Assembly: GCF_030268045.1 (NCBI RefSeq)
Contig: NZ_BSDC01000002.1
Coordinates: 62,001 to 126,000, forward strand
Origin: Geothrix edaphica
GTDB lineage: Bacteria > Acidobacteriota > Holophagae > Holophagales > Holophagaceae
Direction of reading: 5' to 3'
Length of the DNA stretch: 64,000 nt
In this document: positions 6,183 to 12,773 of the stretch, piece by piece
Position numbering within the stretch: the first letter of the stretch is position 1
How the letters are laid out: every line of letters starts with the position of its first letter
Notes under the pieces: generated by a model
Seen by the model: only the letters and a program-made list of their open reading frames with translations
The model's database searches: none
Told to the model about the DNA's origin: nothing
Made by a program: the position numbers and the translations under genes

Positions 6183-8846
6183 ATGCACGGCCGGGCGACC
6201 AAGTTCCTCTCCCTCCTCATCTTGTCTGCGGCCCTGTCCGGCCTGGCGGCCCAGGAGGGGAACCCGGGCGAGCGCCGCCGGGACCTGCCCTACCGCAAGA
6301 GCCCCCATGCCCTCAGCGGCCACGACCGGGCGGATCTGCGTCGGGACTGGAATCTCTTCTGGTTCAACGGCAAGGCCAGCCCCGACTACCTGGACTACAA
6401 GAACCAGGTGGCCGTGCGGGAGGCCGGGGCCTGGGCTCCCCGCCGCCTCCAGTTCACCGCCGGGTCCACCCTGGCCGCCCCCCTGGCCACCGGCCCGGCG
6501 GGCGTGGGCGGCACCTGGACCAACCTGGGGCCCTTCTCGCAGCTCACCAACACTACCCCCGACATCGACAGCGGCCGCCCGGTGGCCATCGTGCCCCACC
6601 CCACCGCGCCCACCCTCTACCTGGCCACCAGCGGCGGCGGCGTGTTCCGATGCGACAACGCGGACCCCGCCCTGGCCGGCGCCTGGACCTGGTACTCGGT
6701 CACGGATTCGCTACCCACCAGCAGCAGTGGCGGCAACGTCGCCGTGGGCGCCCTGGCCATGAGCCCGGTGAATCCCAGCGTCCTCTACCTGGGCGCCGGC
6801 GATTTCTTCGATGCCGAGGGCCGCGGCTTCTTCAAGACCACCGACGGCGGCACCACCTGGACCGCCGCCCCCACCTCGAGTCTCGGCACCGCCACCCGCT
6901 CCTACGCCATCCTCCCCCTGGATGCCAGCCGCGTCCTGTGGGCCACGAACGCCGGCCTCAGGATCTCCACCGATGGCGGCGCCACCTTCACCGGCGCCAC
7001 GGGCGGGCCCGCCACGGGCCAGGTCTGGTCCCTGCAGAAGCTCACCGCCACCGACCTGGTCTGCTCCGTGGAGGCCACCAGCGGCTCCGCGAGCGCCGGG
7101 TCCATCTACTACTCCAGCAACGCCGGCGCCACCTGGACCCAGGCCGCCCTGCCCACCTTCAGCTTCACGCCGGGCCGCATCACCACCGCCGCGGCCCATG
7201 ACGGCGCCACGGTCTACGCCATCCTCGAGGACACCACCAGCAGCAGCACCAAGGTCGCGCGGGGCGTCCTCAAGAGCACCGACAAGGGTGCCACCTGGAC
7301 CTGGCTGGCGGCCCCCACGGCGCCCGGAGGCCTCTTCCAGGGCACGGGCCCCCAGATGACCGGCGATGGCGGCCAGGGCTGGTACAACCACGGGCTCGCG
7401 GTGGATCCCAACAACGCGTCGCGGATCTTCGTCGGGGCGAACCTGGCCCTCTACCGGTCCATGGACGGCGGCGCGACCTGGGCCCAGCTCACCCACTGGT
7501 ACGGCAGCGGCCATGTCTATGCCCATGCCGACTTCCATGCCACGGCCTGGTCGCCGGACGGCGCCACCCTCTACGTGGCCAATGATGGCGGCTTGGCCGT
7601 GGTGCGGGATCCCTTCCAGCCCACCATCCCCACATCCTCCTTCGACCTGACCTTCCTCGACAACCGGCGGAACCTGGGCCTGGCCTCCCACATGGCCTAC
7701 AACGTGGGCTCCACCACGGCGGCCAGCCCCGCCGATTCCAAGTGGCGGATCTCCCTGGGCCTCCAGGACAACGGCACCCGCCTGCGCCAGCCCGCCACGG
7801 CAGGGGGATCGCTCACGGGCACCGAGGGGGTCTTCGAGGACCTGATCGGCGGCGACGGGTTCGCCACCATCTTCCATCCCACCGACGGGAACCAAGTCCT
7901 CGGCAGCCTCTATTACACCGACATTTACAAGGCCACGGACGGCGGAGCCACTCCCAAAAGCTTCGTGGAGTCCATTTCCGGAATCACCGAGGCAAACAAC
8001 AAGGACCTCGCGCCCTTTGCCCCCTATCTCGCGCCTGGCGACAAGGCGCGGCCCTCGGTGGTGTACACCTCCACCAACGGTAAGGTCTACCAAAGCACCA
8101 ATTTCGGCGGAGCCTGGGCGGCCCTGGGCACCGCGGGCCTGCCGGCGCCCCTGGACATGTCCTCTACCACTACGACCAATGAGCTGTTCATCCGCAGCCT
8201 GGCGGCCTCCCCCAGCGACCCGAACACCCTGGGCATCGCCGCCAACCAGTCGCGGGTCTACCTCACTTCCAACGGGGGCTCCTCCTGGACCAAGGCCGGG
8301 AGCCTGCCGGGAACCGGGGCCTCCCTAAGCTGCATCGCGTTCGATCCCGCCTCCGTCACCACAGTGTACGTGGGCTCCGTGGCCACCAGCGCCACGGCCA
8401 ACCACCTATGGAAGAGCACCAACGGCGGCGCCACCTGGTCCGCCATCGACACGGGCACCGGTTTCCCTTTCGGCATTCCGGTGCATGTGGTGAAACCGGA
8501 TCCCGTCACGGCCCGAAAGGTCTATGCGGGCACGGACTTCGGCGTCTACGTGAGCAGCGACGGCGGCACCACCTGGGCCCGCTTCGGCAGCAACATGCCC
8601 CTGGTGGCCGTGCGCGACCTCTACCTGGCCCCGGACGGCACCTTCGTCCGAGCGGCGACCTATGGGCGGGGCGTGTGGGAGATCCGCACGGCCCTGAACT
8701 TCGATCTGAACGGTGACGGCACGGTGGACCTGCGCGACCTCCTCTTCTTCGCCAAGTATTACGGCACCGCCAACACCACTTGCGACCTGAACGGCGACGG
8801 CACGGTGGATGACAAGGACCTCACCCTTCTGCTTGCCGGCCTGTGA
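6183..8846 (+). CDS. Exported BNR/sortilin-type beta-propeller protein with C-terminal dockerin-like module
   Basis: An 887-residue exported protein. The ATG at 6183 has GGAG upstream and opens a signal peptide (KFLSLLILSAALSGLAAQ); a longer in-frame reading to 6102 is less likely. The body contains many Asp-box/BNR repeats of the form S-TDGGTTW, S-DGGATF and S-NGGATW, as in sortilin-like and GH74-type propellers. The last 47 residues hold two EF-hand-like loops, DLNGDGTVDLRDL and DLNGDGTVDDKDL, about 31 residues apart, which is the layout of a type I dockerin. Enzymatic activity is not shown; a structural or adhesive propeller is equally possible. The stop overlaps an in-frame upstream codon of the next gene, and the lipoprotein start at 8858 is only 11 bases downstream. 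Confidence 0.85.
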   Translation: MHGRATKFLSLLILSAALSGLAAQEGNPGERRRDLPYRKSPHALSGHDRADLRRDWNLFWFNGKASPDYLDYKNQVAVREAGAWAPRRLQFTAGSTLAAPLATGPAGVGGTWTNLGPFSQLTNTTPDIDSGRPVAIVPHPTAPTLYLATSGGGVFRCDNADPALAGAWTWYSVTDSLPTSSSGGNVAVGALAMSPVNPSVLYLGAGDFFDAEGRGFFKTTDGGTTWTAAPTSSLGTATRSYAILPLDASRVLWATNAGLRISTDGGATFTGATGGPATGQVWSLQKLTATDLVCSVEATSGSASAGSIYYSSNAGATWTQAALPTFSFTPGRITTAAAHDGATVYAILEDTTSSSTKVARGVLKSTDKGATWTWLAAPTAPGGLFQGTGPQMTGDGGQGWYNHGLAVDPNNASRIFVGANLALYRSMDGGATWAQLTHWYGSGHVYAHADFHATAWSPDGATLYVANDGGLAVVRDPFQPTIPTSSFDLTFLDNRRNLGLASHMAYNVGSTTAASPADSKWRISLGLQDNGTRLRQPATAGGSLTGTEGVFEDLIGGDGFATIFHPTDGNQVLGSLYYTDIYKATDGGATPKSFVESISGITEANNKDLAPFAPYLAPGDKARPSVVYTSTNGKVYQSTNFGGAWAALGTAGLPAPLDMSSTTTTNELFIRSLAASPSDPNTLGIAANQSRVYLTSNGGSSWTKAGSLPGTGASLSCIAFDPASVTTVYVGSVATSATANHLWKSTNGGATWSAIDTGTGFPFGIPVHVVKPDPVTARKVYAGTDFGVYVSSDGGTTWARFGSNMPLVAVRDLYLAPDGTFVRAATYGRGVWEIRTALNFDLNGDGTVDLRDLLFFAKYYGTANTTCDLNGDGTVDDKDLTLLLAGL

Positions 8847-8857
8847 GGAGAACGATC

Positions 8858-9451
8858 ATGACCCACCTGAAGACCTTCCTCACCGGTTCCACCGCGCTGG
8901 CGCTGGGGGCTATGCTGGCCTGCGGCGGGGGGGGTGGGGGCTCATCAGCGCCCGCACCGGCGCCCACGGCCACGAGCCTGGGCTACACGGACCCCACCTC
9001 CGGCACCTACCTGCTGAAGAAGAACACCGCCCTCTCCACCGCCACCCACCTGGTCATGGATCTCGTGGGACCTTCCTCCGCCACGGGCAGCGGCGTCACC
9101 GCCACCTTCAGCGCCGATGCCACCAGGGTGACCTGGGCCAACGTCTCCGCCGCGGATCCCACCGGCACCTTCGTACAGAACGGTACAGCCTTCAACTTGG
9201 GCAGTGACCCCAAGATCCTCAAGGGCAAGGTCACCGCCGGCATCCTGCAGGTCACGGCGGCGCAGAAAGGCGCTGGTAGCCCCGTCTCCCTGGGTGCCCC
9301 CCTACTCCGGGTGGCCCTGGACCTTAGGGCGTCCCAGCTTCCGGGCGCCATCAGCCTCAGCGCCGACGCCACCCGTTGTCAGGTACTCGACGGTACCGGG
9401 ACCATCGCCTCCCCCATCACCGTGGCCGTGGGAGCCCTCGCTGCCCAGTGA
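8858..9451 (+). CDS. Small lipoprotein, possibly cohesin-like
   Basis: A 197-residue predicted lipoprotein. The ATG at 8858 has AGGAG 7 bases upstream, so it is preferred to the GTG at 8843. The lipobox is GAMLAC, followed by a run of Gly and Ser (CGGGGGGSSAP) that acts as a flexible tether. The mature part (about residues 50-197) is a single all-beta domain with the order seen in cohesins: an ATFSADATRVTW strand, a middle ILKGKVTAGILQVT strand pair, LLRVALDLRA, a G-ISLS turn, and a final ITVAVGAL strand. The gene follows the dockerin-bearing gene by 11 bases. The cohesin reading is a suggestion; by primary sequence it is a hypothetical lipoprotein. Confidence 0.7.
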   Translation: MTHLKTFLTGSTALALGAMLACGGGGGGSSAPAPAPTATSLGYTDPTSGTYLLKKNTALSTATHLVMDLVGPSSATGSGVTATFSADATRVTWANVSAADPTGTFVQNGTAFNLGSDPKILKGKVTAGILQVTAAQKGAGSPVSLGAPLLRVALDLRASQLPGAISLSADATRCQVLDGTGTIASPITVAVGALAAQ

Positions 9452-9566: not shown

Positions 9567-12500
9567 ATGAACGCCTTTACGACCCGACGTCTCCCGCTCC
9601 TGGCCCTGATGACCACGTTCATGGCCTGCGGCGGCGGAGGCGGCGGCTCATCTGCCCCGCCAGCTCCGGTGACCCCGGCCATCAGTGCCGTTAATCCCGG
9701 CCATGGGAGCCCTGGCACCGCGGTGGTCCTCACGGGAACGAACCTCCTCGGGGCCACGGCCGTCACCTTCAATGGGAATCCGGCCTTCGCATTCACAGCC
9801 ACCAGCGCCACGGAAATCGATGCCGTAGTGCCCGGCGGGGCGACCACGGGCCCTATTCGGATCACCACTCCCGGGGGCTCGGCCGCCTCGCCAGCCTTCA
9901 CCGTGGATCCAGCCCTACCACCCACAATCACGTCCTTCACGCCCGCCAACCTTCGGGTCGGGACCCAGGTCACCCTCACGGGCACGCACTTCGTGGGGGC
10001 CACCCAGGTGCAGTTCAACGGCCTTAACGCCGCATCTTTCACAGTCGCCAGCGACACGGAGATCCGGGCTACGGCCCCCACGGGCCTGACAGCCGGCAGC
10101 ATCTCAGTGGCAACGCCCGGGGGCACCGCGACCTCCGGCCAGATCTACACCCTATTCACTACGGTCCAGGTGTTGATGAACACCGGTTTCGAGCAGCCCT
10201 CCCCCGTCATCTGGAAGGGGGACACGGGCATCATCCAGGGGGCATCCACCAGCCAACCTGGCATTGGTCCCCACGGTGGAAGCAAGTTCTCTTGGCTGGG
10301 GGGATACGGGTCCGCGATCTCGGACCAAATCACCCAGGATTTCTATATCCCCGCTTCCGCCCAATCCGCCACGGCCACGTTCTACATGAAGATCGTCACC
10401 GCTGAACCGGCCTCGGGCGGGGCCAGAGATTCCGTTCTCATCGAAGTGCTGGACACCTCCGGCGCCCACCTGGGGACCCTGCTCACCCTGACCAACCTAG
10501 ACGTCTCGGGCTACACGGCACGATCCGTGGACCTGTTGGCGTACCGGGGTCGCGTGGTTCGCCTCTCCTTCAAGAGCCAGGAAGACGCCCAGAACGCAAC
10601 CAGCTTCCTTCTGGACGACGTAACGGCCGACATCCAAGCACCCCTGGGCGATTTGGCGCCCATCATTTCCAGCTTCTCGCCCACCTCCGGGGTCGCAGGG
10701 GAAACCACGGTCCAAATCACCGGCATGAACTTCTTTGGACTGACGAGCTTGACCATCGGAGGGGCCGAGGCTGGCATCACGCTCACAGACGGGACGGCTG
10801 TGTCTGCATCCGTCGCGGGCAACGCCATCGGGAGCGCTCCCATCCAGATTTCCAATGCCCAGGGCACTGGCGTCTCCGCCCAGCCCTTCTCGGTGATCTA
10901 TGGCGCGCCGGTCGTTACCAGCGTGTATCCAACCCAGGGCCCGGTGGGCACACCCGTGTTCGTCATGGGGACCTACCTGGGCTATTCCGGAACGACCTTG
11001 ACCTTGAATGGCCAGGCGATCCAAGCGAACCTCAGCGCCAACCGGATCTACTTCACCGTGCCCGTCGGCGCGACGTCCGGCGATCTGATCGTCCGGACTC
11101 CAGGTGGGACCGTCACCCGGACTTTCATCGTTAACTCCGCCGCCACCACCCTGGATCTCCACATCGAGAAAGTAGTGTTCACCCAGAGCATCCAGACCCT
11201 AGACAACGCAGTGCCCATCGTGGCCGGAAAGGACGGGCTCATCCGGGTCTTCGTCCTGGCCAACCAGCCGAATTCCGTATTCCCGGTGGTCCAAGTCACC
11301 CTCCTGAACAATGGCGTGCCGGTGGTCGGCTATCCGAAGACCGTCGCATCCGCTGGGTACACCACTGCCATTTATCTTGACGAAAGTCTGCTTTACAACA
11401 GCTTGAATCTTCCGGTTCCGGGCACCGACCTTGTGACACCCACGGGCACTGGATACAGCATCCAAGCTGTGGTGGATCCTGCGAATGCAGTGGTTGAAGC
11501 CGATGAAACGAACAATTTCTTCACCGCAGCATTAAGTGGCGCCACGGTCCCCATCTTCCGGACCACCATCTTCCCCGTGGCCCTGGCTAGCGGCACCGGG
11601 AATATCACTGAGGCCAACAAGGCCGCATGGGTCGCCAGGCTGGCGAAGATGTACCCGGTGGCATCGATCGACGTCATGGTGGGGGCCACCTTCACGCCCT
11701 CGAGATCCACTCTCACTTCCGACTCCACCCAATGGAGCACGCTCCTGAACGAACTCGCGACCAAGCACCAGATAGATGGCGCCTCGGATCGTTACTATTA
11801 CGGGGCGGTCAATGTCACCTACAGCTCTGGAATCGCGGGAATGGGGTATGTCCCCAACGCTCCATCAGGCCCCTTCCAATTCCGAACGGCCCTCGGCTGG
11901 GACAAGAACGGTTATCAAGACGGGGGGAACTTCCCCGAGGTCTTTTCCCACGAAACCGGACACAACATGGGCCGTTCTCACAGCCCCTGCGGCGCCGCTG
12001 CCGATCCAGATCCCGCCTACCCCTACGCCGACGGAGGCATCGGCGCCTGGGGCTACGACACGACCACGGGCCAGCTGAAATCACCGTCCATCTACAAGGA
12101 CATCATGGGCTACTGCTCGCCCGACTGGGTCAGCGACTACGTCTACAAGAAGATCCTTGATTTCCGCGGCGCCACCGGCGGCTTCCTCAGCGTGGGGGCC
12201 GAGGATGCGCCCCTGCCCAAGGCCCAGGCCAGCGCCCAGGAGTGCCTCCTGGTCCGGGGGATCGTCCACGAGGATGGCCGGGTGGAGTTCCTTCCATCCT
12301 TCCGCACCCGGGCGCTCCCGTCCGCTCCCGCAGCGACCGGGGAATACATCCTCGAGTGCCTCGACCAGAAGGGCCTGCCCGTCTTCACCACGCCCATCGA
12401 GCTGATGGAGCTGGGCTGCGGGCCCAGGGAGCACGAGCGCCACTTCGTCATGGCCCTCCCTCTCGGCGCGGCGGTGCTTGACGCCGTGGCCGGCCTGGAC

Positions 12501-12773
12501 GTCCGCCGGGACGGCAAGGTCCTCGGCAGCCTCCGCGCCACCTCCGGGACCGCCGCGGCGCCCGAGCTGCAGCGCATCTCCGGGGAGAAGGTCCAGCTCA
12601 CCTGGGATGCCACGGTCCATCCAGCCGCCCTCGTCCGCGACGCGGATACGGGCGAGGTCATCGCCATCCTCACCGGGGGGCGCCAGACCTTCGCCACCCG
12701 GGCACAGCGGTTCGATCTGGCGCTCAGCGACGGTGCGGCCGGGCGGGTCCTCCAGGTCAAGGTTCCCGACTAG
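9567..12773 (+). CDS. TIG-repeat lipoprotein with metzincin-type peptidase domain
   Basis: A 1068-residue predicted lipoprotein (lipobox TTFMAC, then CGGGGGGSSAPP, the same tether as the preceding lipoprotein). Order of domains: TIG/IPT repeats at about 35-115 and 116-200, a beta-sandwich with a jelly-roll look at about 205-355, TIG repeats at about 360-445 and 446-525, a CARDB-like domain at about 530-650, then a metallopeptidase region. Its zinc site is HETGHNMGRSH (His795, Glu796, His799, His805), the long HExxHxxGxxH motif of metzincins. A C-terminal beta domain (about 860-1068) follows. It is probably surface-anchored and secreted-protein-degrading; the substrate is unknown. The 115-base gap before it holds only a 7-bp hairpin (9443-9463). 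Confidence 0.82.
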   Translation: MNAFTTRRLPLLALMTTFMACGGGGGGSSAPPAPVTPAISAVNPGHGSPGTAVVLTGTNLLGATAVTFNGNPAFAFTATSATEIDAVVPGGATTGPIRITTPGGSAASPAFTVDPALPPTITSFTPANLRVGTQVTLTGTHFVGATQVQFNGLNAASFTVASDTEIRATAPTGLTAGSISVATPGGTATSGQIYTLFTTVQVLMNTGFEQPSPVIWKGDTGIIQGASTSQPGIGPHGGSKFSWLGGYGSAISDQITQDFYIPASAQSATATFYMKIVTAEPASGGARDSVLIEVLDTSGAHLGTLLTLTNLDVSGYTARSVDLLAYRGRVVRLSFKSQEDAQNATSFLLDDVTADIQAPLGDLAPIISSFSPTSGVAGETTVQITGMNFFGLTSLTIGGAEAGITLTDGTAVSASVAGNAIGSAPIQISNAQGTGVSAQPFSVIYGAPVVTSVYPTQGPVGTPVFVMGTYLGYSGTTLTLNGQAIQANLSANRIYFTVPVGATSGDLIVRTPGGTVTRTFIVNSAATTLDLHIEKVVFTQSIQTLDNAVPIVAGKDGLIRVFVLANQPNSVFPVVQVTLLNNGVPVVGYPKTVASAGYTTAIYLDESLLYNSLNLPVPGTDLVTPTGTGYSIQAVVDPANAVVEADETNNFFTAALSGATVPIFRTTIFPVALASGTGNITEANKAAWVARLAKMYPVASIDVMVGATFTPSRSTLTSDSTQWSTLLNELATKHQIDGASDRYYYGAVNVTYSSGIAGMGYVPNAPSGPFQFRTALGWDKNGYQDGGNFPEVFSHETGHNMGRSHSPCGAAADPDPAYPYADGGIGAWGYDTTTGQLKSPSIYKDIMGYCSPDWVSDYVYKKILDFRGATGGFLSVGAEDAPLPKAQASAQECLLVRGIVHEDGRVEFLPSFRTRALPSAPAATGEYILECLDQKGLPVFTTPIELMELGCGPREHERHFVMALPLGAAVLDAVAGLDVRRDGKVLGSLRATSGTAAAPELQRISGEKVQLTWDATVHPAALVRDADTGEVIAILTGGRQTFATRAQRFDLALSDGAAGRVLQVKVPD

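Follow-up and report, generated by a model that had tools for sequence, protein, structure and literature searches.

A dockerin-bearing propeller protein and the cohesin-like lipoprotein encoded beside it: a probable surface-anchoring pair in Geothrix

What does a dockerin plug into in a bacterium that carries no multi-cohesin scaffoldin? The question is raised by two neighboring genes of Geothrix edaphica, located on a stretch of 64,000 nucleotides (contig NZ_BSDC01000002.1, positions 62,001 to 126,000 of the forward strand; hereafter the window, in whose numbering all positions are given). The first gene (6183–8846, 887 residues) encodes an exported propeller protein ending in a dockerin, and the second (8858–9451, 197 residues) encodes a lipoprotein with one cohesin-fold domain. 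An initial annotation, made from the bare sequence, had assigned the DNA to a probable acidobacterium, placed a small lipoprotein gene 11 bases behind the propeller gene, and read the two products as a possible cohesin–dockerin pair. The host is indeed an acidobacterium of soil or aquifers (genus Geothrix, family Holophagaceae, phylum Acidobacteriota; genome of 3.16 Mb), and the coordinates of both open reading frames and the 11 bases between them agree with that annotation, as does the reading of the second product as a lipoprotein, which has a signal peptide with a cysteine at residue 22. As judged by sequence comparison and structure prediction, the two genes most probably encode a cognate cohesin–dockerin pair that serves in surface anchoring and does not belong to a cellulosome—a reading to which we assign a probability of about 0.83.

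The exported protein features a signal peptide read from the sequence (approximately residues 1–23), a BNR/Asp-box propeller of the sortilin/GH74-like kind, and the C-terminal dockerin. The propeller matches Sortilin-Vps10 in Pfam (E 8.1e-17), the BNR/Asp-box matches being weak; its matches to structures of GH74 xyloglucanases are distant, patchy, and local (best 5fkr, E 2e-8). The dockerin module (8700–8843, forward strand, as are all features described here) is of type I. Dockerin_1 (PF00404) matches residues 840–883 at 2.7e-7 and 31.1 bits, above the Pfam gathering cut-off of 22.9, and the best matches of the propeller tail are dockerins of the PDB: 2y3n_B (E 1.7e-6), 2jnk (7e-6), and also 2ozn. 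A search of the host's own genome scores the module at 36.6 bits, the single match above the Pfam cut-off. The two EF-hand-like loops in dockerin arrangement that had been noticed at the outset are both complete: loop 1, DLNGDGTVDLRD (8703–8738), and loop 2, DLNGDGTVDDKD (8784–8819), each read D-x-N-x-D-(6)-D, with all expected calcium ligands (D1, N3, D5, and D12) in place. These ligands are conserved in relatives; among 57 non-redundant ones, D1, N3, D5, and D12 are found in 54, 44, 51, and 54 for loop 1, and in 47, 35, 47, and 56 for loop 2. At residues 10–11, loop 1 carries LR and loop 2 DK, an asymmetry that the relatives retain and that is consistent with a single binding mode. Such a mode has been described for cohesin–dockerin pairs of Clostridium thermocellum and Clostridium perfringens (PMC5429695).

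As read from the sequence, the lipoprotein begins with a signal peptide and lipid-attachment cysteine (8858–8923; MTHLKTFLTGSTALALGAMLAC-GGGGGGSSAPAPAPT), Cys22 (8921–8923) following a hydrophobic stretch with a slightly atypical Met at position –3. A Gly-rich and Pro-rich linker extends to approximately 8968, its poly-Gly lying directly behind the cysteine; both Cys22 and the poly-Gly are kept in relatives. The remainder (residues 38–197; 8969–9448) is predicted to form a jelly-roll domain. Neither Pfam nor NCBIfam gives a match for the lipoprotein, in keeping with the annotators' remark that a cohesin here would carry no recognized sequence signature. The AlphaFold model of the window's domain, based on an alignment of 19 relatives, reaches a predicted local distance difference test score (pLDDT) of 81.5 and a predicted template modeling score (pTM) of 0.80, and features the nine-stranded jelly-roll of cohesins. 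The first 27 rows of a Foldseek search of this model against the PDB are all cohesins, at modest E-values of 2e-3 and above, and the first 47 rows of VIA-align are all cohesins of several types (Z 8.3–11.3), the best with Z 11.3 and a root-mean-square deviation of 3.1 over 134–139 residues. The model of a relative, whose pLDDT exceeds 95 across most of the domain, likewise has cohesins at the top (Foldseek E 2.9e-6, Z 12.6). A fold unrelated to cohesin, the outcome named at the start as speaking against the proposal, was tested for and did not occur, the top fold matches being cohesins; structure prediction and fold search bear out the cohesin-like character claimed for the all-β domain.

Sequence homology to known cohesins is detectable only from profile to profile and with a broad alignment. 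With hhalign, a profile of 44 relatives aligns to 14 Pfam cohesins of other Acidobacteriota at 76.8% with a score of 35.8 over 98 colinear columns. A narrow alignment (A1) gave a weak 9%, and because only the broad alignment (A2) gave a signal, controls were run: none of 40 column-shuffles scores above 17.3, and the reversed profile and an alignment of TIG domains reach 11.6 and 12.2, respectively. Since the fold searches are topped by cohesins and the hhalign score lies far above these controls, the domain is, by predicted fold and remote homology, a cohesin of a family not captured by the Pfam model. Narrow and broad lipoprotein profiles were also run against the PDB with hmmsearch; the only match, 6rqg (E 0.17), is at the level of chance.

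The two proteins are linked by their genomic neighborhood. Of 77 Holophagaceae genomes surveyed, 60 contain Pfam dockerins and 66 contain the lipoprotein domain. Of the 100 strong lipoprotein domains in these 66 genomes, 77 have a Pfam dockerin 0–1200 nucleotides upstream on the same strand (chance expectation, 0.03), and around the 100 no opposite-strand dockerin neighbor within 5 kb was seen. Most of the unpaired strong copies that were inspected have a sub-threshold dockerin just upstream, such as LDLDGDGALGLSDLLAFAGQWG...FKGSGTVDDTDLATLL, in whose loop 2 calcium ligands have been lost. All genomes with exactly one dockerin and one cohesin-like domain carry them side by side (27 of 27). The window's genome is among these: the only dockerin there that passes the Pfam cut-off lies next to the only such lipoprotein domain, which goes well beyond chance. 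In 18 relatives drawn from genome contigs, all from Geothrix or other Holophagaceae, the gene directly upstream of the lipoprotein invariably ends in a dockerin. Geothrix fermentans has an orthologous pair with a lipoprotein 84% identical to that of the window, and one genome (G048) holds three pairs. Of the 11 Holophagaceae genera, 10 have the lipoprotein cohesin in one or more genomes, and outside the Holophagaceae clear copies occur in only 2 of 396 sampled Acidobacteriota genomes (G177 and G312); the copy of G177, the one of the two that was scanned upstream (L147), is preceded by a dockerin-tagged propeller. Three Holophagaceae genomes of only 0.9–1.2 Mb (G001–G003; loci L031, L039, and L042) carry one dockerin and one cohesin-like gene approximately 860 nucleotides apart. 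Three dockerin matches listed as unpaired (L141, L146, and L149) were set aside, as they look like false or off-frame matches.

Co-folding of the two modules, proposed early on as a check, was carried out on a relative of the same genus (L029) rather than on the window's own pair, because the latter needs an artificial frameshift to be read as one chain. In L029, the dockerin and lipoprotein genes are in frame and separated by a natural stop, so that one TAG was read through; the alignment was deepened by separate dockerin and cohesin rows. The AlphaFold model of this linked pair has a pLDDT of 87.5 and a pTM of 0.82, shows the two dockerin helices, and leaves the linker of about 30 residues (61–89) disordered. 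For a floating dockerin, a pTM of about 0.6 would be expected by our own estimate, so the two modules of L029 appear to be confidently placed against each other. The model supports dockerin–cohesin binding without proving it. Linkage across 66 genomes and this confident co-fold support the central proposal of the initial annotation, that propeller and lipoprotein form a pair.

The module is conserved and its cargo is not. At the syntenic site, the gene order is helicase, dockerin protein, cohesin lipoprotein, M66 lipoprotein (in most relatives), and winged helix-turn-helix (wHTH) protein. Over 18 syntenic loci, the propeller body falls from 85% to approximately 34% identity with that of the window, with dockerin and cohesin at 60–93%; among pairs with bodies less than 40% identical, the dockerins average 72% and the cohesins 68% identity. 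At two loci flanked by these helicase and wHTH genes (L090 and L091), the body has no propeller match and dockerin and cohesin are retained—in L090, a papain-like C1 protease stands in the propeller's place. The bodies at paralogous sites include peptidases of the families C10 (L082), M6 (L087), C1 (L093), M4 (thermolysin; L095 and L096), and S8 (subtilisin; L089). All that the units share is that one protein ends in a dockerin and its neighbor carries a cohesin. Units of this plug-and-socket design are spread through the whole family, the plug being borne by propellers in some and by various proteases in others, and so they seem to be a general means of holding secreted proteins on the cell, one protein to one anchor. 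It is somewhat probable that Holophagaceae display proteins on their surface by a "one cargo, one anchor" principle, in which the cargo, propellers and at least five unrelated peptidase classes, is swapped on a conserved module; where a genome has several units, each anchor may be specific to its own cargo.

Variants of the module are also seen. The dockerin subtype of L082–L088 has a loop 2 of the form NFKGSGTVDD[TN]D, in which most calcium ligands are lost, and is still paired with a cohesin lipoprotein. Two loci (L095, G008:C7:27000-36000; L096, G017:C1:1326000-1336000) are tandem arrays in which dockerin-like proteins alternate with cohesin lipoproteins; their dockerins are divergent and partly without calcium ligands, and the two open reading frames scanned are of the M4 thermolysin type.

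Several observations weigh against a cognate anchoring pair. PF00963 exceeds its gathering cut-off in none of the 44 family members and nowhere in the window's genome, which puts the domain outside the Pfam family as drawn and into a separate cohesin-type family. The co-fold was made for L029 instead of the pair of the window; AlphaFold was trained on cohesin–dockerin complexes and may place any dockerin likewise. In three genomes of one genus (L142–L144), a propeller-dockerin gene at the syntenic site has no cohesin neighbor and directly precedes the wHTH gene, with cohesins present elsewhere in those genomes; the pairing is hence not always one to one, and it is possible that these dockerins share an anchor with other genes. 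The divergence of dockerins correlates with that of cohesins at r 0.34, not above the r of 0.51 between cohesins and bodies, so that no signal of dockerin–cohesin co-evolution beyond linkage is seen. For an outer-membrane export route of the cargo, secretin-like matches lie only below the cut-off.

Other readings have to be set against this evidence. The lipoprotein could carry some other jelly-roll domain, e.g., a carbohydrate-binding module, that merely lies beside a dockerin gene, the dockerin binding something else or nothing. The missing Pfam cohesin match would fit such a domain, as would the E-value of 2e-3 that the window's model reaches by itself and the carbohydrate-binding module 6qfs at rank 28 of the Foldseek list for the relative's model; yet the top rows of both Foldseek and VIA-align are exclusively cohesins, the alignment of the profile to PF00963 scores well beyond the shuffled controls, and a second cohesin was not found in the window's genome. 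A carbohydrate-binding module would also fail to explain why, in 66 genomes, the domain is linked to dockerins whose cargo belongs to unrelated classes, and we regard this reading as improbable. Even less credit goes to the lipoprotein being a dedicated inhibitor, immunity protein, or chaperone of the upstream enzyme. Small β-sandwich inhibitors are encoded beside some bacterial C1 and C10 proteases, the usual position of such a gene—short and directly downstream—is that of the lipoprotein gene, and many upstream cargoes are peptidases. Against this stand the cohesin fold, the cargo of the window and of L005–L022, which is a propeller and no protease, and the association of one lipoprotein family with five unrelated peptidase classes as well as propellers. 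The dockerin is the sole part that these cargoes share, and no activity is common to them, so that an enzyme-specific inhibitor cannot explain the units in general.

The least probable of the alternatives is a small cellulosome, in which the propeller would be a GH74-type xyloglucanase recruited to a scaffoldin. A cellulosomal GH74 enzyme with a dockerin is known from Clostridium thermocellum, and the distant resemblance of the propeller to 5fkr points the same way; that similarity is only local, though, and catalytic residues are not assignable from the alignments. In the window's genome, neither a scaffoldin with several cohesins nor a set of dockerin-bearing carbohydrate-active enzymes was found, one dockerin over the cut-off and one cohesin domain being the whole complement found. 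The genomes of relatives carry one to few dockerins, the scanned ones sitting on propellers and peptidases, and most other cargoes scanned at paralogous sites are peptidases. Without a scaffoldin, the cellulosome is dropped as an explanation.

A cognate anchoring pair would work as follows. The propeller protein is probably exported through the Sec pathway, as its signal peptide suggests, and its C-terminal dockerin would fold with calcium after export. The lipoprotein would be lipidated at Cys22, as its lipobox indicates, and present its single predicted cohesin on a flexible Gly/Pro-rich stalk, which most likely stands on the outer face of the outer membrane. The dockerin would then plug into the cohesin and the secreted propeller be held noncovalently, as linkage and co-fold suggest. 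Elsewhere in the Holophagaceae, the same module would anchor other cargo, chiefly peptidases of unrelated classes, with one anchor per cargo gene.

The two genes are coupled by the 11-base spacer (8847–8857), which contains a GGAG Shine–Dalgarno sequence (8847–8850); a distance of approximately 10–12 bases to the next ATG is also found in relatives. Scanning for sigma-70 promoters and terminators around the gene pair yielded nothing useful. The next gene (9567–12773) encodes a lipoprotein of 1068 residues that contains four TIG domains together with a metallopeptidase domain of M66-like type, which bears the motif HExxHxxxxxH. It has no dockerin and is retained at the syntenic site in most relatives.

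In the open-licence literature, no account was found of a diderm bacterium whose cohesin is a lipoprotein that forms a two-gene unit with its dockerin cargo, nor any description of a cohesin/dockerin system in Holophagaceae. On dockerins in Geothrix or Acidobacteria, that literature yielded only a comparative paper in which dockerins and cohesins are counted as a side category of carbohydrate-active enzymes. If the proposed pairing is correct, it would give a concrete job to non-cellulosomal cohesin/dockerin modules, whose roles are mostly unassigned: they would keep exported proteases and propellers noncovalently on display at the surface of a diderm via a lipid-anchored socket. It would also add a cohesin family that Pfam misses, and the natural pairs—several per genome in some species—could be used for tests of pair specificity and to build surface display in Gram-negative bacteria.

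Single-cohesin surface anchors are already known from Gram-positive cellulosome producers. OlpA and OlpC of Clostridium thermocellum, in the pairs OlpA–Doc918 and OlpC–Doc435 (PDB 3ul4 and 4dh2), are anchors of this kind with a single binding mode (PMC5429695). As proposed for Geothrix, the cohesin of a surface protein there directly recruits one dockerin-bearing enzyme outside the cellulosome, and both are among the structural matches of the lipoprotein domain. The Geothrix anchor differs in being a diderm lipoprotein, in belonging to a two-gene unit, and in its cohesin family, which Pfam misses. The OlpA and OlpC anchors are attached to the wall of a Gram-positive cell, and their genes are not known to lie directly behind those of their cargo. 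ScaE of Ruminococcus flavefaciens (PDB 2zf9) is likewise a surface protein that has a single cohesin and holds a partner with a dockerin (PMC5429695), and 2zf9 is matched with Z 8.3–9.9. ScaE, however, tethers a whole scaffoldin, whereas in Geothrix there is no scaffoldin and each anchor comes with its own cargo gene.

The modules of secreted glycoside hydrolases of Clostridium perfringens (PDB 2jh2, 2vo8, 2o4e, and 2ozn) form non-cellulosomal two-protein systems with a single binding mode (PMC5429695). They are the closest Foldseek matches of the relative's model, and the dockerin tail of the propeller matches 2ozn and 2jnk. In that system, the cohesin lies within the enzymes and joins enzyme to enzyme, unlike the Geothrix cohesin, which sits on a putative lipid anchor. 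Dockerin-tagged peptidases, for their part, are known from cellulosome-like systems with multi-cohesin scaffoldins (mucinolysome, PMC12997984). Within the phylum, Pfam cohesins occur in approximately half of the sampled Acidobacteriota genomes and in none of the Holophagaceae genomes listed. Two of these other Acidobacteriota (L098 and L106) share with Geothrix the presence of a cohesin domain, but theirs is recognized by Pfam, and they carry it at the C terminus of a type II/III secretin instead of on a lipoprotein. Non-cellulosomal cohesin and dockerin modules are known from numerous bacteria and archaea, and for most of them no role has been assigned (PMC9012536, citing Peer et al. 2009). 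The Geothrix pair resembles them in lacking a scaffoldin and in its structural match to 2xdh of Archaeoglobus (Z 8.9–10.2), and differs in that the operon pairing and the cargo classes of the Holophagaceae point to a concrete role, the anchoring of secreted proteins.

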